Shown piece by piece: positions 3,160 to 24,891 of a stretch of 64,000 nucleotides of DNA. Below the pieces are notes generated by a model. That model did no database searches, had not been told where the DNA came from, and was given only the letters and a program-made list of their open reading frames with translations. The translations under genes and the position numbers were made by a program. Where the stretch lies: the NCBI RefSeq assembly GCF_004310425.1, contig NZ_SIUB01000003.1:372001-436000 (forward strand), given 5' to 3'. This stretch comes from Hansschlegelia quercus (GTDB lineage: Bacteria > Pseudomonadota > Alphaproteobacteria > Rhizobiales > Methylopilaceae). Every line of letters begins with the position of its first letter. Position 1 is the first letter of the stretch.

Positions 3160-4478
3160 TCGCCTGGGGCGACCACGCGCTCGCCGCCGTAATGCCGCTC
3201 CGGCCTCGACCAGCCGGTCGCGACGAGGCGGGCTGGCAATGGCGGCCGCACCTCCAGCCGCTTGATCGCGAGGGAGACGGCGATATCGATCGCCTGCTTC
3301 GAGTAGAACCCGCCGTTCAGCTGGGTCTGCGCTGTGACGACGCGGCGGAAATCCTGCGCGAAATCCGGATCGGGCGGCGTCGGCTCCCGCCAGAAACTCT
3401 CCAGCGTGCCCTGATGGGTGAGGCCGGGCATGTCGTAGATCGCCTGGCCCAACGCGATCGTCGGCCGGCCGCGGCTGACGGCGAGCGTCCCGATCGTGCT
3501 GTTGACCACCACGACTCCCGCCGCGCCGTCGAGCAGCGACGGGCCATGGCCGCCGTCGAGATAGAGCAGGCGTTCGCCGAGCCCGGTCTTGCGCGCGGTG
3601 ATGCCCGTGAGGCGGCGGCGGTTGACCAGGCCGTTGTCGAGCGGGTGCAGCTTCACGACAAGCCGGTCGGTCGGACGCGCGTTCATGGCGAACGAGCGCG
3701 CGACGAAGTCCACAACCTCCGTCATCGCGCTGAAGGGGGAGTGCAGGCGGATCTGGTAGTCGCTGTCGAGCTGAAGCGGCAGGAGGAAATAGCGTCCCTC
3801 GCCGGTCGCGAGCTGCGCCTCGACCTCGGCCGCGCGACGCTTCTCCGCCTTCCCCTTTATGAAGCGGCCGAGCCAGCCGGCATATTCGATCAAAGGGTGC
3901 TGCGGCCTATGCCGGCGATAGAACGGGTAGAAATAGGGGAGCGCGACGTTCGCCACATTGTAGGTCACGTCCCAGAGCGTCCGGAGCCGCATGTCGCCGC
4001 GGATGTGCTCGTGCCCTAGGTCGGTCTCCGCCAGTTCGGCTGCGAGTTGGCGGATCGCCTGCGGATCTCGCGGCAAGCGGGAGAAGCCGTTGACGCCGCC
4101 GGTCTCAAGCGTGATCCAGTTCGGTCGGAAGTAGCCTTCCTCGAACACATGGACGTCGAGGCCGCGCAGCCGCGCAGTCTCGATTGCGGCGCGGTGATAG
4201 GGCCGGCCGTCGCCGAACAGCACGAGGTCGGTGACGCCGCGCTCCTCGATGAAGTTGGAGAGGAAGTCAGGCCAAGCGGACAACCGGCCGCGATAAGCGA
4301 CGGCGCCGCCGAGCCGCCAGAACAGTTCGTCGCCGAGGTTGAGATTGATCCGCGTGACGTTGAAGCCGCGCTCCAGGAGCGCGCCGCCGAGGCGCCTGAA
4401 GAATGGCGAGGCAAGGCCCTGCAGAAACAGGAAGGTGCGCGCCGGCCGGGGGTGATCGGCATGTCCGCGGTCTGTCAT
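3156..4478 (-). CDS. Capsule polysaccharide biosynthesis protein, KpsS-like
   Basis: A 440-residue protein of the Capsule_synth family, seen in the N-terminal FLFLQGLASPFFRRL segment, FGDGRPYHR, the EEGYFRPNWIT motif and a late VVVNSTIGTLAVSRGRP stretch typical of the KpsS/KpsC group. E. coli KpsS and KpsC are cytoplasmic Kdo transferases that build the lipid-linked Kdo anchor of group 2 capsules. The reading frame continues upstream to 4616, but the first 46 residues are low-complexity and basic, so I take the ATG at 4478 (MTDRGHAD). It overlaps the SDR start by 4 bp and diverges from the KpsC-like gene. A capsule role is well supported by context; Kdo specificity is inferred. Confidence 0.83.
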   Translation of the reverse strand: MTDRGHADHPRPARTFLFLQGLASPFFRRLGGALLERGFNVTRINLNLGDELFWRLGGAVAYRGRLSAWPDFLSNFIEERGVTDLVLFGDGRPYHRAAIETARLRGLDVHVFEEGYFRPNWITLETGGVNGFSRLPRDPQAIRQLAAELAETDLGHEHIRGDMRLRTLWDVTYNVANVALPYFYPFYRRHRPQHPLIEYAGWLGRFIKGKAEKRRAAEVEAQLATGEGRYFLLPLQLDSDYQIRLHSPFSAMTEVVDFVARSFAMNARPTDRLVVKLHPLDNGLVNRRRLTGITARKTGLGERLLYLDGGHGPSLLDGAAGVVVVNSTIGTLAVSRGRPTIALGQAIYDMPGLTHQGTLESFWREPTPPDPDFAQDFRRVVTAQTQLNGGFYSKQAIDIAVSLAIKRLEVRPPLPARLVATGWSRPERHYGGERVVAPGE

Positions 4479-4670
4479 CGGTCGCCTGCGGGGATGTCTC
4501 GAATAGGCGGTCCCCGTCTCCACCCTGACCGACGTTCTGGAAGAATCACCGCCGCATTCAAGCCTATGCGGCGAGGACCGCCGCGATCGGCGCGGCTTTG
4601 ACGTTGCAAGCGGCATGACCGACAGCTAGCGCTTGGCGCCGGTCCGGAGCGCTATACCTCGGATGCCCAG

Positions 4671-6233
4671 TTGAAACATAGGAACGGCAGGGTGGCAATC
4701 GTCTCGCGGCGGCTGGAAAGCCGTCGCGCGGATGTCGAGGCCGTCACGAGCTTGACCGTCTCCGGCGCCGGTCCTGTGATCATTGTCGCAACGACAAGCG
4801 GCGATCCGCATATGGCGACGGCCGAGGCGAAGGCGCGGAACGCAGGCGCCGGGCTCGCGGTCTTTGCGCCTGCTCCGCTCGCAATCTCAATCTTCGAGCG
4901 CGCCCGCCGGCCGCTTTGCTACCGCGTGACGGGCCTGGAGGGCCCGCCGGTCGACGAGGCTGCTTCAGGCGGCCTGAAAGTAGCCGTCTCGGGCCTTTTG
5001 GCTATCGCCCCGCCGGGCGAAATCCGTATCGAAGCCGACCTTGACCCGGCGGATCCATCAATCGTTTGGCTCTGCCCGTATACCCGGCGGCGGATCTCCG
5101 CGGCTCGCGCGATCGACATTGCGGGCGACGCGCTGCGCCATCGGGCGCGGACCGCCCGCCGCTCTTTCGCGGTCGGCATCACCCGCTGGAAACGGGACGC
5201 CGTAAGCGCGTTCCTTGACGGACCGAATGGAAGCCCCGTCTTCGCCGATACAGGCGATGCCGCTGCAGGCGCAAAGGCGGCGTCGGGCCGGATCGTCGTC
5301 TGGGCGTCTCGCCGCAGTGAGGAGGTTGAGAAAGCGGCGCGCGAGGCCGGCGCGCCGCTCGCGCGCCTCGAGGACGGCTTTCTCCGCTCGGTTGGCCTCG
5401 GCTCCGCCTTCGTTCGGCCTGCGTCGCTCGTGCTCGACGAGAGCGGAATCTACTACGACCCCTCAACGGCGAGCGACCTCGAGAAACTTCTGCGTGAGGT
5501 GGACCTGCCGGCGCCGCTCATCGCGCGCGCGGCAGCCCTTCGGCGCCGGATCGTCGAGGCCGGCGCCACCAAATACAATGTGGGCGCAAGCGGGCGGCGC
5601 GTGGTCCCGGAAGGCCGGGTGGGCGTTCTCGTGCCCGGCCAGGTCGAAGATGACGCCTCGATCCTGCGCGGCGCGGGCGCGGTGCGCACCAACCTGGCGC
5701 TGGTCGCGGCCGTGCGGGCGCGCAGGCCGGACGCCTTCATCGTCTACAAGCCGCATCCGGACGTGGTCGCCGGCTACAGGAGGGGCGCGCCGGCCGATCC
5801 GGAGATCGCCCGGATTGCCGACGCCGTCGTGACGGAAGGCTCGATCGCGGACCTCTATCCGCAATGCTCGAGCGTCGAGACCATGACCTCGCTCACGGGC
5901 TTCGAGGCCCTTCTACGCGGGCTGGAGGTCACCACCCATGGGCAGCCCTTCTATGCGGGCTGGGGACTCACCGAGGATCTCGCCCCGCCGTCGCCCCGTC
6001 GCGGCCGCGCGCGCGCGCTCGACGAACTGGTGGCCGCCGCCCTCATCCTCTACCCGCTCTACGTGGATCCGGCGTCCGGCCTGCCGTGCGGGCCGGAGAC
6101 GGCGCTCGAGCGCATTCTGGAGGCGCGGAGCGCCGCTTCCGCCGCCGGCGGCCGGCTCGCCGCGCGTGTGCGCCATGCTTATGCGCTTGCCCGCCACCGG
6201 CTGCTCGGCCCGTTCGCCAAGGGGCGGCTGTGA
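4671..6233 (+). CDS. Capsule polysaccharide biosynthesis protein, KpsC-like
   Basis: Up to 520 residues, of the KpsC/Capsule_synth family: LARLEDGFLRSVGLGS, SGIYYDP, a VLVPGQVEDDASI strand, YKPHPDVV, and the late GFEALLRGLEVTTHGQPFYAGWGLT signature. E. coli KpsC has two tandem transferase halves of about 330 residues each; here only one half is recognisable and the first 150 residues are divergent, so this looks like a single-module version. The frame begins with TTG at 4671; GTG at 4692 (with AGGAA just upstream) and ATG at 4812 are also possible, so the start is uncertain. Its stop overlaps the next gene's GTG start. It probably adds linker sugars to a capsule lipid. Confidence 0.82.
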   Translation: MKHRNGRVAIVSRRLESRRADVEAVTSLTVSGAGPVIIVATTSGDPHMATAEAKARNAGAGLAVFAPAPLAISIFERARRPLCYRVTGLEGPPVDEAASGGLKVAVSGLLAIAPPGEIRIEADLDPADPSIVWLCPYTRRRISAARAIDIAGDALRHRARTARRSFAVGITRWKRDAVSAFLDGPNGSPVFADTGDAAAGAKAASGRIVVWASRRSEEVEKAAREAGAPLARLEDGFLRSVGLGSAFVRPASLVLDESGIYYDPSTASDLEKLLREVDLPAPLIARAAALRRRIVEAGATKYNVGASGRRVVPEGRVGVLVPGQVEDDASILRGAGAVRTNLALVAAVRARRPDAFIVYKPHPDVVAGYRRGAPADPEIARIADAVVTEGSIADLYPQCSSVETMTSLTGFEALLRGLEVTTHGQPFYAGWGLTEDLAPPSPRRGRARALDELVAAALILYPLYVDPASGLPCGPETALERILEARSAASAAGGRLAARVRHAYALARHRLLGPFAKGRL

Positions 6234-19076: not shown

Positions 19077-19964
19077 TCAGTCGATCCCGTCCTTTATCGG
19101 CGCGAGCCGGACGATCGGTGTCACCGGCTCATCCTCCGCCGCCTGCGCCTGCTCCTGCGCGTGAATGAAGCCTTCGAGGCGGATCAGCGCCGCCTTGAGG
19201 GCGGGAGAATCAAGGTCGCGGGCGCCGGGAAGCGCTGGCACGTCCATGAGCTCGACGACTTCGCCGGGATTGGTCTTCAGCACCAGCACGCGGTCGGCGA
19301 GCAGCAGGGCCTCGTCGAGGTCGTGGGTGATGAAGACGATGGTGACGTCGATCTTGCGCCAGATGTCGATGAGGTAGGCCTGCATCCGCGCGCGGGTGCG
19401 GGCGTCGAGCGCGGAGAACGGCTCGTCCATCAGCAGGATGCGCGGCTGGATCGCGAGCGCGCGGGCGATCGCGACGCGCTGCTTCATGCCGCCGGAAAGG
19501 TGGTGAGGATAGGCGTCGGCATAGGGCTCCAGGCCGACGAGGTCGAGCCATTGCCGCGCCTCGCGCGCCGCCTCGTCCTTCGGCTTGTTCGCCATCTGCA
19601 GGCCGAACATGACGTTCCCGAGCACGGTGAGCCACGGAAACAGCGTATACCCCTGGAACACCATCGCGCGGTCGGGCCCGGGGCCGTGCACGGGCTTGCC
19701 GTCGACCAGGATGTCCCCGCCCTGCGCCTCCTCAAGTCCGGCGATCGTGCGGATCAAGGTCGACTTCCCGCAGCCGGAGGGTCCGACGACGCAGAGGAAC
19801 TCGCGGCGGCGGACCTTGAGGTGGACGTTGTTGAGAATGGTCCGCTCGGAGGTGCCGTGCGGGACGGTCTTCACCAGCCCGCGCACGTCAAGGATCGCCT
19901 CGCGGGCGTTGAGCCGGTCGAGGCGCGCGGCGACCTGGTGTTCGATGGCGGACGGATCGCTCAT
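19077..19964 (-). CDS. NitT/TauT-family ABC transporter ATP-binding protein
   Basis: A 295-residue ABC ATPase with Walker [11 protein letters not shown]-loop VFQGYTLFPWLTV, signature LSGGMKQRVAIARALA, Walker B ILLMDEPFSALD and the switch histidine in VFITHDLDEAL. Its closest types are TauB/SsuB/NrtD ATPases. The C-terminal ~35 residues (acidic, ending PIVRLAPIKDGID) extend past the usual length. The permease stop overlaps its ATG (4 bp), so it is the last gene of a substrate-binding protein > permease > ATPase operon. A longer frame to 20549 runs antisense to codon bias through the permease and is rejected. The substrate is unknown. Confidence 0.9.
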   Translation of the reverse strand: MSDPSAIEHQVAARLDRLNAREAILDVRGLVKTVPHGTSERTILNNVHLKVRRREFLCVVGPSGCGKSTLIRTIAGLEEAQGGDILVDGKPVHGPGPDRAMVFQGYTLFPWLTVLGNVMFGLQMANKPKDEAAREARQWLDLVGLEPYADAYPHHLSGGMKQRVAIARALAIQPRILLMDEPFSALDARTRARMQAYLIDIWRKIDVTIVFITHDLDEALLLADRVLVLKTNPGEVVELMDVPALPGARDLDSPALKAALIRLEGFIHAQEQAQAAEDEPVTPIVRLAPIKDGID

Positions 19965-20968
19965 GCGCTGGTCCTCTTCCACGGGAAGAGCCAGCGGCCC
20001 AGCCAGGCGAGCAGGAGGTCCGAGCCGAAGCCGACGATCCCGAGCACGAGGATCGCGGCGTAGACGTTCTCGAAATGCTGGTAACGCGCCTGCTGGGTGA
20101 TGAAGAAGGTGATCCCCGACGAGGTGCCGACCAGTTCGGCGACGATCAGATAGGTCCATGCCCAGCCGAGCAGGATGCGCTGGTCGTTGTAGAGGTCCGG
20201 CAGGATCGCGGGGACGACGACCCTGCGGACGAGCTTCAGATTGCGGGCGCCGAGCGTCTGCGCGGCCTCGAGCAGGGCATATTCCACCCGCCGCGTCGTC
20301 GTCGCGATGATCAGCACCTGCTGGAAGAACGTGCCGATGACGACGATCGCGATCTTCGGCGCGTCGTAGATGCCGAGCACCGCGACCGCAAGCGCGCCGA
20401 AGGCGGGGGCGGGCAGGTAGCGGAAGAACTCGATGAAGGGCTCGGTCAGGCGCCCGACCGCGGAAAACGACCCGCACAGGATGCCGAGCGGCACGCCCAC
20501 GGCTGACGAGATCAGGAACGCCCAGAAGATGATCTGGATCGAGTGCCATAGGCTGGAGCTCAGCCGGAACTCTTCGCGCGCGTCGGCGGCAGGCGTCGCC
20601 GCATGCCAGAGCGCGATCGCGACCTCATGCGGGGCGGGCAGATAGACGGGGTTCGCCGGCACGCCCCTTGGCGGCGCTTGGCCGGCGGCGGTCATCGCTT
20701 CGACCTCCTCGGCGAAGGCGTCCGCCGGAGCGCGCATGCCGGCCGAGAAATAGCTCACATCGCCGGGATCGGTGATCTCGACCAGCGGATGCCACAGGAA
20801 AGGCGCGTAGGAGATCGCACTCCAGAGCGTCAGCGGAAGAATAAAAGAGAGGACGCCGAGCACGGCGCGAACGCGCGGCGCCGGCGGCCGCCCGACGGCG
20901 AACAGGCGCCGCGCTGTGAGAGCCCGCCGCCGAGTCGGCGGCGGGGTCGCGACGACTTTCGCCTCCAA
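19961..20968 (-). CDS. NitT/TauT-family ABC transporter permease
   Basis: A 335-residue membrane protein with a hydrophobic segment near residues 38-58 (VLGVLSFILPLTLWSAISYAP), a periplasmic insert of about 90 residues, then a BPD_transp_1 core: WHSIQIIFWAFLISSAVGVP, the coupling-helix region EAAQTLGARNLKLVRRVVVPAILP, and late segments ILVLGIVGFGSDLLLAWLG. It resembles TauC/SsuC permeases, but the periplasmic insert (GDVSYFSAGMRAPADAF onward) is larger than usual. It follows the binding-protein gene by 3 bp and overlaps the ATPase start. The operon is preceded by a NikR-type operator. Confidence 0.9.
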   Translation of the reverse strand: MEAKVVATPPPTRRRALTARRLFAVGRPPAPRVRAVLGVLSFILPLTLWSAISYAPFLWHPLVEITDPGDVSYFSAGMRAPADAFAEEVEAMTAAGQAPPRGVPANPVYLPAPHEVAIALWHAATPAADAREEFRLSSSLWHSIQIIFWAFLISSAVGVPLGILCGSFSAVGRLTEPFIEFFRYLPAPAFGALAVAVLGIYDAPKIAIVVIGTFFQQVLIIATTTRRVEYALLEAAQTLGARNLKLVRRVVVPAILPDLYNDQRILLGWAWTYLIVAELVGTSSGITFFITQQARYQHFENVYAAILVLGIVGFGSDLLLAWLGRWLFPWKRTSA

Positions 20969-20971
20969 GAT

Positions 20972-21955
20972 TTACTTGGCCGCGATCGACGGATCGATAT
21001 AGGCCTTCACGTCTTGGGCGTCCTTGTAGACGCCCGCCTTGACGTTGAAGTCGTCGGCGTAACGCGAGGAGCCGTAGAGCGATCCGAAGCCCTCGGCGTC
21101 CTTGAACACCTTGGCCCCCTCGACCGCGCTCAGCAGCTTGGTGCCCTTGAGGTAGCGGACATATTCCTCCGGCGGCACGCCGCTGCGCGCCGCCATGATC
21201 TTCACGGCGTCGGGCTGCGTCTTCGGGTCGTCGATATAGGCGACCACCCTGTCCCAGACCTTGAGCATCTTGGCCCAGTCGTCCTTGCGGGACGCGAAGC
21301 TCGTCGGCGACACGGTCACGACGTCGTAGATCAGGCCGGGCTGATCGGCGGAGGTGTAGAGCGGGCGGGCGCCGGGGGAGCCCTTCATCGCCTGGCCGGC
21401 CACCGGCTGCCACGCGCCCACCGCCGAGATGGCGGCGTCGCCGAGCACCTGCGGCGTGTCGTTCGTCTTGACGTTGACGATCTCGACGTCGGTGTCCTTC
21501 ATGTTGGCCTTCTTCAGGCCGTTGAGCAGCAGCAGGTGCTCGACGAGACCGCTCTCGAGGCCGATCTTCTTGCCCTTGAGGTCGGCGAGCTTCTTCACGC
21601 CGGACTTGCCGATGATCATGTCGTTGCCGTTGGAGTAATCCGTCAGCATGACCATCACGCCCTTGGAGCCCGACGAGCCCATGACCAGCGTGTCGCCGTT
21701 GGTGACGGTCACGGCGTCGATCTTGCCGGCGCCGAAGGCCTCCATCGAGGCCGAATAGTCGAACCACTCGAACTGCACGTCGACGCCGGCTTCCTTGAAC
21801 CAGCCCTTGTCGATCGCGACCTGCCAGGCGACCCAGCCCGGCCAGTCGCTATAGCCGACCTTGAGCGGCTCGGCCGCAAGCGTGGAAGAGGCGGGAGCGG
21901 CGAACGCCGCGAGCGCCAGCGCCGCAGCGCCGATGAATTTCCGGAAGGACCGCAT
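20972..21955 (-). CDS. NMT1/SsuA-like ABC transporter substrate-binding protein
   Basis: A 327-residue periplasmic binding protein with signal FIGAAALALAAFAAPASSTLA and an NMT1-type fold: KVGYSDWPGWVAWQVAIDKGWF, EAGVDVQFEWFDYSASMEAFGAG, DAVTVTNGDTLVM, LLTDYSNGNDMIIGKSGV and GKKIGLESGLVEHLLLLNGL. From memory, the YSDWPGWVAW and DYSNGNDMI strings recall binding proteins annotated as urea-carboxylase-associated, some linked to guanidine or urea metabolism; I treat that as a lead only. ATG 21955 is preferred to the frame start at 22015, which would cross the operator. The palindrome at 21973-22000 ends 18 bp upstream of this start, well placed for repression. Confidence 0.88.
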   Translation of the reverse strand: MRSFRKFIGAAALALAAFAAPASSTLAAEPLKVGYSDWPGWVAWQVAIDKGWFKEAGVDVQFEWFDYSASMEAFGAGKIDAVTVTNGDTLVMGSSGSKGVMVMLTDYSNGNDMIIGKSGVKKLADLKGKKIGLESGLVEHLLLLNGLKKANMKDTDVEIVNVKTNDTPQVLGDAAISAVGAWQPVAGQAMKGSPGARPLYTSADQPGLIYDVVTVSPTSFASRKDDWAKMLKVWDRVVAYIDDPKTQPDAVKIMAARSGVPPEEYVRYLKGTKLLSAVEGAKVFKDAEGFGSLYGSSRYADDFNVKAGVYKDAQDVKAYIDPSIAAK

Positions 21956-21972
21956 GCCGATCTCCTGCCTGA

Positions 21973-22000
21973 GTATTACGATTTGACACATTCGTAATAC
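21973..22000. promoter_or_regulatory. Perfect 28-bp palindromic operator, NikR-type spacing
   Basis: GTATTACGA, ten bases, then TCGTAATAC: a perfect 9-bp inverted repeat spanning 28 bp. The E. coli NikR site, GTATGA-N16-TCATAC, spans the same 28 bp and shares the outer GTAT...ATAC. It lies in the 84-bp gap between the ABC-importer operon and the NikR-like gene, 18 bp from one start and 40 bp from the other, so one bound tetramer could control both directions. Confidence 0.8.
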
Positions 22001-22039
22001 GGCTATTCGATGCACGAGGCATGCCAGATGGAGGCGTCG

Positions 22040-22519
22040 ATGGCTCGAAGCGCGGCGACGAAAGCGGGGACCGGAGGCGGCCAGCGCTTCAACGTGGAGC
22101 GCATGACGGTCTCACTGCCGCAGACCGTTCTCGCCGAACTCGACGCGACGGTTGCGCGGCGCGGCTTCGCCAGCCGCTCGCAGGCCGTGGCGGAGCTCCT
22201 GCACCGCGGTCTCGTCGACGATCGTAGCGAGTTCGGCGACGAAGTGATGTGCGGCGCGCTGACCTTGTTCTACGGTCAGCCCTCGGCCGGCGTCGAGCAG
22301 CGGCTGGGCGATCTCCAGCGGGCGAATATCGACGAGGTGATCGCCTCGTTTCACGTGCACCTCAACGAAAACAGGACACTGGAGGTGGTTCTGCTCCAAG
22401 GACCCGCGCGCAAATTGCAGGCGATTGCCGATGAAATGATCACCGTTCGCGGGGTGATCTCGGGACGGCTGCAGGTGGTCGCAGCGATCATGCCGCAGAT
22501 CCATCCCTTTATCCGCTGA
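22040..22519 (+). CDS. NikR-like ribbon-helix-helix regulator lacking two nickel ligands
   Basis: 159 residues: a ~20-residue extension, a ribbon-helix-helix DNA-binding domain (VERMTVSLPQTVLAELDATV, RRGFASRSQAVAELLHRGL) and an ACT-like C-terminal domain (IASFHVHLNENRTLEVVLLQG, IADEMITVRGVISGRL). In E. coli NikR the high-affinity nickel site is His76, His87, His89 and Cys95. Aligned by eye without gaps, those positions here are Arg94, His105, His107 and Thr113, so two of four ligands are lost. I chose ATG 22040 because GGAGG lies 5 bases upstream; ATGs at 22010 and 22028 are possible. lrgA follows after 20 bp. It probably binds the palindrome at 21973-22000, but its effector may not be nickel. 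Confidence 0.87.
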   Translation: MARSAATKAGTGGGQRFNVERMTVSLPQTVLAELDATVARRGFASRSQAVAELLHRGLVDDRSEFGDEVMCGALTLFYGQPSAGVEQRLGDLQRANIDEVIASFHVHLNENRTLEVVLLQGPARKLQAIADEMITVRGVISGRLQVVAAIMPQIHPFIR

Positions 22520-22539
22520 GCCCAAGGTCGGAGGCGGCC

Positions 22540-22923
22540 ATGCTCAAGGGCCTTTTCATCCTGCTGCTGTTCCAACTCGTCGGCGAGGCGATCTCGCGAG
22601 GGTTGGGGCTGCCAGTGCCGGGACCGGTGATCGGCGTGATGCTGCTATTCGCCGCCCTCATGCTAAGCGCCCGCTTCAAGCCCATGCGGAAGCCTGACGA
22701 AGGGCCTCTCCCGGTTGAGCAGGCAGCGGACGGGCTCCTGAGCCATCTCGGCTTGCTGTTCGTGCCGGCAGGCGTCGGCGTCGCGCAAAGCTATTACGCG
22801 CTGCAAGGTCACCTGCTCGGCGTCGCCGTCGCGCTGATCGGTTCGACGGCGATAACTCTGGTCGCGACCGTCGCTGTGTTCCGGCTGGTCGCGCGCGCGA
22901 TCGAACGCAGGGCCGCGCGATGA
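22540..22923 (+). CDS. CidA/LrgA family membrane protein
   Basis: A 127-residue protein with four predicted membrane segments: LFILLLFQLVGEAIS, VPGPVIGVMLLFAALML, LGLLFVPAGVGVAQSY and GVAVALIGSTAITLVATVAVF. The PGPVIGM-like and FVPAGVG motifs are typical of CidA/LrgA. It partners with LrgB, encoded next with a 4-bp overlap. LrgAB were first described as holin-like, but several pairs are now known to transport small carboxylates such as pyruvate, and the plant fusion homologue PLGG1 moves glycolate/glycerate. Being 20 bp downstream of the NikR-like gene, it is likely controlled by the same operator. Confidence 0.9.
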   Translation: MLKGLFILLLFQLVGEAISRGLGLPVPGPVIGVMLLFAALMLSARFKPMRKPDEGPLPVEQAADGLLSHLGLLFVPAGVGVAQSYYALQGHLLGVAVALIGSTAITLVATVAVFRLVARAIERRAAR

Positions 22924-23651
22924 AGCCGTCGCCCGAGCGCTTCTTCGAACTCTGGGTCTTTCTCTCCACCAGCCCGCTGCTCTGGCTGACCGTCACGATC
23001 GGCGCATTCCTCGCGGCGCAGCAAATTGCAGCGGCGGCGGGGCGTCACCCGCTGGTCAATCCGGTGCTGATCGCCATTGTCGCCATCGTCGTCGTGTTGC
23101 GGGTGACCGAGACCGACTACCGGACCTATTTCGACGGCGCGCAGTTCGTGCATTTCGCGCTCGGGCCGGCGACCGTGGCGCTCGCCGTCTCGCTGTTCCG
23201 CAACCGGGCGCTGGTCGCCCATGACGCGGCCCCGATCGCCGCCGCGCTCGTCGTGGGCGCGATCGTCGCCTGCGTCTCCGTTGTCCTGATCGCCCGCGCG
23301 CTCGCGTTGCCGCCCGAGATCGTTACAGCGCTTGCGCCGAAATCGGTGACGGTGAGCATCGCGCTCGGCATCGCCGGCCAGATCGGCGCCGATCCCGGCC
23401 TGGTAGCGGTGTTCGCGATCGCGACCGGCATCAGCGGGGCGATCCTCGTTACCCCCGTCATGAACGCGCTTGGGGTGAAGGACTTCGCCGCCCGCGGCTT
23501 CGCCGTGGGCCTGGCTTCGCATGGCATCGGGACCGCGCGCGCCTTTCAGGTGGACGGCGTGGCCGGCGCCTTCGCGGGGCTGGCGATGGCGCTCAACGCC
23601 GTCGTCACCGCGCTCGTCGCCCCGACGATCATCGGCTGGCTCGCTCCGTAG
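22920..23651 (+). CDS. LrgB family membrane protein
   Basis: A 243-residue LrgB/CidB-type protein with six or seven hydrophobic segments. The family motifs are clear: YRTYFDGAQFVHFALGPATVALAVSL, the LAPKSVTVSIALGIAGQIG block, FAIATGISGAILVTPVMNALGVKD, and AVGLASHGIGTARAFQ. It forms the second half of an LrgAB pair (ATGA overlap with lrgA) and probably a carboxylate transporter in the inner membrane. Its 3' end overlaps the convergent DUF763 gene by 23 bp. Substrate unknown. Confidence 0.9.
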   Translation: MKPSPERFFELWVFLSTSPLLWLTVTIGAFLAAQQIAAAAGRHPLVNPVLIAIVAIVVVLRVTETDYRTYFDGAQFVHFALGPATVALAVSLFRNRALVAHDAAPIAAALVVGAIVACVSVVLIARALALPPEIVTALAPKSVTVSIALGIAGQIGADPGLVAVFAIATGISGAILVTPVMNALGVKDFAARGFAVGLASHGIGTARAFQVDGVAGAFAGLAMALNAVVTALVAPTIIGWLAP

Positions 23652-24891
23652 AGGCTGGCGCCGCCGGCTCCCAGCCGAAGGTGCTGCGCCCGCCATAATC
23701 GTACGATCGCGCCCGCTCCTCGGCGATCACCGCCTCGACCGATGGTCCGGTCGCGACGCGCTCAAGCCTGCGGGCCTCCGCGTCGAGCCGCTTCAGCGCG
23801 TCAAGCCGGTCGTCGAGGCCGAGCTTGGAGCGGCCCACGGCCGATCGCAGCACGCCGATCGTCTCGTCATAGACCCGCGTCGGCACGGGGAAGGGATGCC
23901 GATCCTTACCGCCATGCGCGAAGGAGAACCGCGCGGGATCGCTGAACCGGCAGGGCGCGCCGTGAACGACTTCGGCGACCAGGGCCAGCGCGCGGACCGT
24001 GCGCGCGCCGACGCCCGGCGTCAGCAGCAGGTCCGGAAAATCCTGCGGTCCGCGCTCGGCGGCCGCTGCGATCGCGCCCTGCAGCCTCCGCTCGACGACG
24101 TCTTGGCGACGCACCTCGTGATGCGCCGGCATGACGAGATGCGGCAGCATCGGCTGCGCGTCGGGCGTCTTCTCGACCGAAGGACGCTCCAGCGCGATCG
24201 CTTCCGCTGCGATCCTGTCCGGCGACACGGTTCGCAACAGGTCGAGCTGGACATCGCGCGACGACTTCGCGCGGCAGTCCGCAAGGTTGACGATCCGGCC
24301 CTGCGCTTCGCCGTCGATCGCGGCGTGTGGATCGTCGACGAAGCTTTCCAGCCCTTCCGAGAGCCAGTGGTAGCGCCGCGCCGTGCGGTTGTCGCCGTTC
24401 ATGCCCTGCTGGACCACGGTCCAATTCCCGTCGTCTGTGACGAAGAAGCCGTGGAGATAGAGATCAAACCCGTCCTGGACCGCGGCGCTGTCGATCTTGG
24501 CGACCAGACGGCTCGCTTTCGTCAGCGGCTCCGCATCGATCCCGATCCGCTCGCCGATCAGGCCGAGCTCCGCCGGCGTCTTGCGTGACTGCGCGCCGCG
24601 GCCGCCGCAGACATGGATTCCGAGTTCCGAGGACAGCGGCGCAAGACCGCGCTTGAGCGCTCCGACGACGCTGGTGGTGACGCCGGAGGAGTGCCAGTCC
24701 ATGCCCATCACGGCGCCGAAGGACTGGAACCAGAAGGGATGCGCCAACCGTCGGAGCAGCTCGTCTCGCCCGTAATGGATGACGATCGCTTCCGCCATCA
24801 CGGCGCCAAGCCGCGTCATCCGCTGGCCGAGCCAAGCCGGCACGCGTCCGCCATGCAGCGGCAGGTCCGCCCCGCCGGTTCGTCTCGCCAT
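23629..24891 (-). CDS. DUF763 domain protein
   Basis: A 420-residue DUF763 protein: RTGGADLPLHGGRVPAWLGQRM, then HYGRDELLRRLAHPFWFQSFGAVMGMDWHSSGVTTSVVGALKRGL, GIHVCGGRGAQSRKTPAEL and LYLHGFFVTDDGNWTVVQQGM. The second half contains a helix-hairpin-helix-like string, LLLTPGVGARTVRALALVAEV, suggesting nucleic-acid contact. Two Cys/His-type sites are not obvious. DUF763 is found in archaea and scattered bacteria and has no established function that I know of. It is monocistronic here and diverges from the L,D-transpeptidase. Confidence 0.85.
   Translation of the reverse strand: MARRTGGADLPLHGGRVPAWLGQRMTRLGAVMAEAIVIHYGRDELLRRLAHPFWFQSFGAVMGMDWHSSGVTTSVVGALKRGLAPLSSELGIHVCGGRGAQSRKTPAELGLIGERIGIDAEPLTKASRLVAKIDSAAVQDGFDLYLHGFFVTDDGNWTVVQQGMNGDNRTARRYHWLSEGLESFVDDPHAAIDGEAQGRIVNLADCRAKSSRDVQLDLLRTVSPDRIAAEAIALERPSVEKTPDAQPMLPHLVMPAHHEVRRQDVVERRLQGAIAAAAERGPQDFPDLLLTPGVGARTVRALALVAEVVHGAPCRFSDPARFSFAHGGKDRHPFPVPTRVYDETIGVLRSAVGRSKLGLDDRLDALKRLDAEARRLERVATGPSVEAVIAEERARSYDYGGRSTFGWEPAAPASTERASR

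Follow-up and report, generated by a model that had tools for sequence, protein, structure and literature searches.

Gene content of the locus

We examined a NikR-like regulator gene of Hansschlegelia quercus together with its neighbours and a predicted DNA operator, all located in a 64,000-nucleotide stretch (positions 372,001 to 436,000 of contig NZ_SIUB01000003.1, assembly GCF_004310425.1; referred to as the window). The gene (22040–22519, plus strand) encodes a protein of 159 amino acids in which a ribbon-helix-helix is joined to the NikR_C domain, as indicated by Pfam (71.3 bits for NikR_C against a cut-off of 22) and by alignments. On the minus strand, a divergent ABC importer operon comprises genes for an NMT1/SsuA-type substrate-binding protein (SBP, 20972–21955), a permease (BPD_transp_1 in Pfam, 19961–20968) and an ATPase of the nitrate/taurine/sulfonate type (about 19077–19964, with a start deduced from where it overlaps the permease stop). 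The starts adopted for the SBP, the ATPase and the NikR-like gene are chosen starts and not those of the longest frames. On the plus strand, lrgA (22540–22923) begins 20 bp past the stop of the nikR-like gene and overlaps lrgB (22920–23651) by 4 bp; both were assigned by Pfam and are lineage-specific neighbours of the regulator gene.

A palindrome of 28 bp, GTATTACGA-N10-TCGTAATAC, occupies positions 21973–22000 with 0 mismatches; 17 bp separate it from the likely SBP start and 39 bp from that of the NikR-like gene. A sequence-only reading of this DNA had placed such a palindrome between a NitT/TauT-type importer operon and a NikR-like gene followed by lrgAB, and this arrangement is indeed present. 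When up to three mismatches were allowed, the shuffled window yielded a mean of 0.01 matches, and the palindrome was the single such site in the whole 3.58-Mb genome. For comparison, the operator of E. coli NikR, described together with the ligands of the protein in PMC7055735, was located in strain MG1655 as GTATGACGAATACTTAAAATCGTCATAC (i.e., GTATGACGA-N10-TCGTCATAC), 37 bp before nikA—matching the GTATGA-N16-TCATAC pattern given in the sequence-only reading. The half-site geometry of the window palindrome is the same, and the window contains a predicted palindromic operator of the GTATGA-N16-TCATAC type.

Metal-site residues of the NikR-like protein

The closest solved chain to the window protein is 2bj1 (E 4e-24), from P. 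horikoshii. In an alignment to E. coli NikR, positions 76, 87, 89 and 95 fall on Arg94, His105, His107 and Thr113 of the window protein (RHHT), exactly the residues named in the sequence-only reading; the square-planar His3Cys nickel site is absent. The potassium site formed in E. coli by Glu30 and Asp34 is altered as well, with Gln30 and Glu34 at these positions. Two other features set the protein apart from canonical NikR, namely a glutamate at the position equivalent to E. coli residue 81 (Glu99 in the window protein) and a C-terminal PxxHP tail. Its Pfam domain and operator mark the protein as a NikR, but its nickel and potassium sites fall outside the definition of a nickel-responsive regulator. 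Profile-based annotation gives a mixed picture: the protein passed the NCBIfam model PRK02967 for the nickel-responsive NikR (86 against a cut-off of 83), whereas neither PRK04460 (104.6 against 105) nor TIGR02793 (79.2 against 175.45) was reached. The PRK02967 match implies that databases may name this protein a nickel regulator, a designation that is probably wrong for the entire group of relatives described below.

A distinct clade of NikR relatives

Among 397 genomes of the order, five relatives were found at 56–79% identity, after which the values fell to 38% or less; an alignment-based search of 385 genomes of the class returned three strong matches (the window genome G000, G131 and G638, with at least 186 bits), followed by a fall to 108 bits. 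An alignment search applied to named genomes produced 25 loci (L058–L082), and a single-protein scan of the genome contigs (113 stretches) confirmed no relative. These 25 loci stem from Hansschlegelia, Methylobacterium, Hyphomicrobium and Parvibaculum, and from metagenome-assembled genomes (MAGs) labelled Xanthobacteraceae, Bradyrhizobiaceae, Rhodobiaceae, Rhodospirillales, Alphaproteobacteria or Proteobacteria, plus one gammaproteobacterial and one verrucomicrobial MAG; the loci of genomes G010, G017 and G018 correspond to L058, L059 and L069. We compared 29 rows (the window, L058–L082, G131, G357 and G638, representing 23 distinct sequences) with 36 canonical NikRs, defined as the best-scoring other hits that became loci. 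Three loci (L006, L007 and L032) were removed from these controls as clade members, since they hold the same genes as L069, L049 and L050. In a FastTree reconstruction with the 36 controls, and with identical sequences counted once, the relatives formed a monophyletic clade with an SH-like support of 1.000 and a stem length of 0.995.

The clade is NikR-derived and distinct, and its members have lost nickel ligands. None of the 29 rows retains His3Cys, which is present in all 36 controls (HHHC throughout). Homologues with all four nickel ligands in the same neighbourhood, which would have spoken against the repurposing proposed in the sequence-only reading, were thus not encountered. The signatures were RHHT (19 rows), FHHT (4), YHHT (2) and RHQT, RSLV, AHHT and SHFS (1 each). 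The loss amounts to two ligands in 26 rows and exceeds two in the other 3, and it always includes the cysteine and the cross-subunit histidine. Position 30 is Gln in 29/29 clade rows, as opposed to the potassium ligand Glu in 36/36 controls; position 81 is Glu in all clade rows and in no control; and a C-terminal PxxH occurs in 28/29 rows against 1/36. Nickel sensing with conserved ligands was rejected on these counts (His3Cys in 0/29 rows).

Such a pattern could also be produced by a sensor for a different metal, in which His105 and His107, perhaps with His155 and Glu99, would bind Zn, Co, Cu or Fe and gate DNA binding. The retention of both His87 and His89 in 26/29 rows fits this scenario, as do the invariant glutamate at position 81 and the nearly invariant PxxH, and canonical NikR is able to bind Co, Ni, Cu and Zn, according to PMC7055735. 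The histidines are, however, both missing from L082, and the second is missing from L050 and L081; position 76 varies among R, F, Y, A and S; and the recurrent partner genes, as far as the neighbours were scanned, concern nitrogen compounds. We therefore consider an altered metal sensor rather unlikely.

The DNA-reading end of the protein is conserved. Arg3 and Thr5 are the base-contacting residues of the NikR ribbon-helix-helix, and position 3 is Arg and position 5 Thr or Ser in the window protein and at all 25 named loci. With one NikR_C match in the host genome, interference from a canonical NikR is not expected in that species. More broadly, no separate canonical NikR was found in six carrier genomes (G000, G010, G017, G131, G018 and G357), each of which gave one match at E 1e-6.

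The predicted operator is conserved and precedes the operon

Operator conservation was assessed at 25 loci with the relevant intergenic region; 22 of these come from the window and the named genomes, and the other three are G131, G357 and G638. Four loci (L064, L072, L074 and L079), at which the contig ends before or inside the first gene of the operon, stood outside this test, and scanning them separately gave no operator match above 12/18. The best match to the window operator across the whole locus lay at the expected place in 24 of the 25 testable loci—scoring 15–18 of 18 in 22 of them and 14 of 18 in L081 and L050—while none of the 458,108 other positions reached 14. An absence of the palindrome from related genomes, which would have undermined the sequence-only reading, was therefore not observed. 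At the Hyphomicrobium locus L077, the half-sites are identical to those of the E. coli operator. Where nikR is the last gene of a same-strand operon, the operator precedes the first gene (SBP or creatininase) instead of nikR, with 15–18 of 18 positions matching in L062, L071 and L049 and a weaker 14 in L081. No other finding argues as strongly for a role of the operator in the operon as this relocation to the operon front, which, together with the common operator, strongly supports the predicted control of the ABC importer. Finally, we scanned 15 whole genomes for sites with up to three mismatches: each of the six carrier genomes had one, at the nikR-like locus. Taken together with the conserved reading head, these patterns suggest that the NikR-derived protein probably acts like NikR on DNA, and they support the earlier proposal that a NikR was repurposed, retaining its recognition of DNA while its metal site changed.

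Recurrent neighbour genes

The genes next to nikR were counted by tblastn (E 1e-8) at the 25 loci L058–L082, several of which are cut by contig ends and eight of which belong to Methylobacterium. At least one of five partners—the SBP, a creatininase-like enzyme, GlnT, a urea-amidolyase-associated protein (UAAP; UAAP1 and UAAP2 carry this name in NCBIfam) or a guanidine/urea carboxylase—was present in 24/25 loci; the locus with none of them is L064, where the contig is cut 114 bp before the match. By partner, ABC genes were found in 19/25, GlnT in 20/25, the creatininase-like gene in 18/25 and UAAP or carboxylase in 13/25 loci. The five partners, and LrgAB, gave no match at E 1e-8 in 26 canonical NikR loci (13–18.5 kb), a control set that was chosen by the author among the canonical hits. 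Across the order, an SBP orthologue (E 1e-60) occurred in 4/397 genomes, all four of which have the NikR-like gene. The GlnT copy in G010 scores as a type III glutamate-ammonia ligase (TIGR03105, 641 bits against a cut-off of 469.6), the nearest solved relative of which is the glutamate-methylamine ligase 9qur. While this partner enzyme, in 20/25 loci, resembles type III glutamate-ammonia and glutamate-methylamine ligases (TIGR03105; PDB 9qur and 7cql), a link of such systems to NikR was not found in the literature searched, and the window genome has no close orthologue. An uncharacterised nitrogen pathway is suggested by the operon that combines creatininase-like and methylamine-ligase-like enzymes, which was found mostly at loci of Methylobacterium, Hyphomicrobium and Hansschlegelia. 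All three are methylotroph genera.

The gene downstream of nikR differs between species, as indicated by a serine hydroxymethyltransferase gene closely following the nikR-like gene on the same strand in Hansschlegelia plantiphila (L058, 9453–10721). By eye, we also noted genes for urease and its accessory proteins, oriented convergently to the nikR-like gene, at two Methylobacterium loci (L061, 10185–13756; L063, 9490–13019), accompanied by a match to the 5'_ureB_sRNA.

These neighbourhoods bear on whether the protein could still sense nickel through a degenerate site, coupling the supply of the metal to nickel-dependent or nickel-free nitrogen pathways. The NikR fold and operator are kept, and the urease genes adjoin nikR at the two Methylobacterium loci, yet the systematic loss of the cysteine and the cross-subunit histidine is joined by that of Glu30, and no match to nikA or nikB was found at any of the 25 clade loci, as compared with nikA relatives in 6/26 canonical loci. 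The window has no linked nickel importer; like NikR of E. coli, H. pylori and P. horikoshii, the protein unites a ribbon-helix-helix with NikR_C and its gene adjoins an ABC importer, but this importer is of the NMT1/SsuA type and not NikABCDE, with nitrogen-compound genes as the recurrent neighbours. A persisting nickel sensor thus seems highly improbable.

A probable local regulator of nitrogen-compound uptake

Considered jointly, the evidence makes it probable, in our judgement, that the clade consists of NikR-derived local regulators, most likely repressors, which answer a nitrogen-rich metabolite instead of nickel. In this mechanism, the DNA reading head and operator of NikR would have been kept, the square-planar site for nickel and some of the potassium site would have been lost, and a response to a metabolite of the guanidine, urea or methylated-amine type would have replaced the response to nickel. 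The NikR-like protein would act as a single-target transcription factor, binding the 28-bp operator located tens of bases from the start of its own gene and from that of the divergent ABC operon. Because the operator is this close to the two starts, we infer that the importer operon and nikR itself are repressed; a sigma-70 promoter scan of 21800–23750 gave no match, which argues neither for nor against repression. The protein is also not expected to respond to nickel. As to the effector, guanidine, a substituted guanidine or another related nitrogen compound is a guess, and so is the proposal that guanidine or a substituted guanidine serves as both effector and import substrate.

A connection to guanidine is suggested by the likeness of the system to the riboswitch-controlled guanidine carboxylase regulons reviewed in PMC12186494, by the kinship of its NMT1-type importer with the urea-carboxylase-associated SBP, and by the UAAP or carboxylase genes found in 13/25 loci. 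TIGR03427, the model for the latter SBP, is the best specific family for the window SBP and matches 12/12 aligned orthologues. At L082 (330–5605), a compact nikR-UAAP1-UAAP2-carboxylase order accompanies a protein that has none of the four nickel ligands. Comparison of the window SBP with solved structures gave no match at E 1e-10 as a single sequence; searched as a profile, it returned seven weak ones (E 1e-9 to 2e-4), with sulfonate-, taurine-, nitrate- and amino-acid-binding proteins among them. Unlike the guanidine riboswitch regulons, the present system has a NikR-like protein with its own predicted DNA operator and, in other species, additional creatininase-like and GlnT genes. The window itself contains no Rfam Guanidine-I, II or III match at gathering score and no carboxylase gene beside the regulator.

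Several observations weigh against a nitrogen-responsive regulator in general, or against guanidine in particular. With His87 and His89 retained in most rows, some metal may still bind. The operator score of 14 of 18 was reached by 1/15 shuffles in three loci, which places L081 and L050 near chance, and L082, from the verrucomicrobial MAG, has no recognisable operator. Among nine congeners without the gene, four had one site with three mismatches and five had none, and a backwards control pattern was matched once in 3/15 genomes. In the window genome, the best matches to GlnT and to the creatininase-like protein reach 40% and 34%, so neither has a close orthologue there; the survey of this genome indicates that importer and regulator have been kept, that the GlnT and creatininase-like enzymes were lost or never present, and that lrgAB lies behind nikR. 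Its UAAP and carboxylase genes are on another contig, behind a Guanidine-I riboswitch (L127, 12216–12327). The window SBP, moreover, scored 146 bits against the TIGR03427 cut-off of 333.9, compared with 501 for a riboswitch-linked SBP in G018, and the imported compound may well differ from guanidine. All 13 named carboxylase loci were scanned, and five of them carry a Guanidine-II riboswitch of their own, as does G131—at the UAAP1 start in G131, L063, L065, L066 and L073, and before the carboxylase in L081—which would make a further sensor for guanidine partly redundant at those loci. Of the remaining eight, L060, L078 and L080 are cut inside the UAAP or carboxylase genes. Counting in favour of the reading, UAAP1 directly follows the nikR-like gene, in the same orientation, at L074, L079 and L082, and scans of these three loci found no guanidine riboswitch at gathering score.

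The more specific proposal that the metal-binding domain of NikR has become a protein module that senses guanidine or a substituted guanidine is held only tentatively. The pocket would be formed by the glutamate at position 81, the conserved Tyr60, Gln75 and Glu97, and the new C-terminal histidine, in a geometry that is a guess. Were it true, the clade would constitute a DNA-binding counterpart of guanidine riboswitches, replacing them where none was found (L074, L079 and L082) and working beside them elsewhere. A guanidine-type effector would also mean a protein sensor for a metabolite treated as a riboswitch ligand in PMC12186494. The clade offers a clear example of a metal sensor whose operator was retained although its effector was, in all likelihood, exchanged, and several degrees of divergence can be read in living relatives. 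A search of the open-access literature, consisting mostly of abstract openings, returned no description of this NikR-derived clade and nothing pairing NikR with lrgAB; on NikR and allophanate, the accessible part of PMC2667541 names no such regulator.

The lrgAB genes as lineage-specific neighbours

The lrgA and lrgB genes of the window form a two-gene operon with both Pfam models above cut-off (82.8 bits for LrgA and 232.5 bits for LrgB), as expected of LrgAB/CidAB-type transporters, although neither protein reaches any of its three listed NCBIfam cut-offs, and the adjacency to nikR is specific to the lineage. The sequence-only reading envisaged a dedicated NikR-LrgAB circuit in which the import of one solute is coordinated with the transport of a second one by LrgAB. 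The close spacing and common orientation of nikR and lrgA in the window agree with this idea, and at L062 a distant lrgAB pair is convergent with nikR. No lrgAB match was found beside nikR in the other 24 of 25 related loci (tblastn, E 1e-8; a threshold that may overlook distant pairs, at loci of which some are truncated) or in L045–L056 at the same threshold. The LrgB orthologues of the two nearest relatives are located elsewhere—215 kb from nikR in G010 (79% identity) and on another contig in G017 (76%)—and no operator was found at either site. Coordination with LrgAB as a general system is hence unsupported, LrgAB was rejected as a conserved partner, and a dedicated circuit appears quite unlikely.

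In the window species, lrgAB is probably cotranscribed behind nikR. LrgAB/CidAB-type proteins have been described as pyruvate or glycolate transporters; on that account, our guess is that LrgAB might here move a small carboxylate left after nitrogen removal from a substrate. The pair at L062 (9470–10574), in the order lrgB-lrgA and with an LrgB 33% identical to that of the window, is apparently an independent second case of proximity to a nikR-like gene. The window genome also harbours a second lrgAB copy (L144, C9:11500-20500, at 3933–5207), with lrgB in broken frames, which sits behind weakly formamidase-like and UrtA-like genes, both scoring below cut-off. By eye, a similar arrangement occurs in G017 (L143), where the lrgB frame is open and the encoded LrgB is nearest to the second copy of the window genome, at 87–89% identity.

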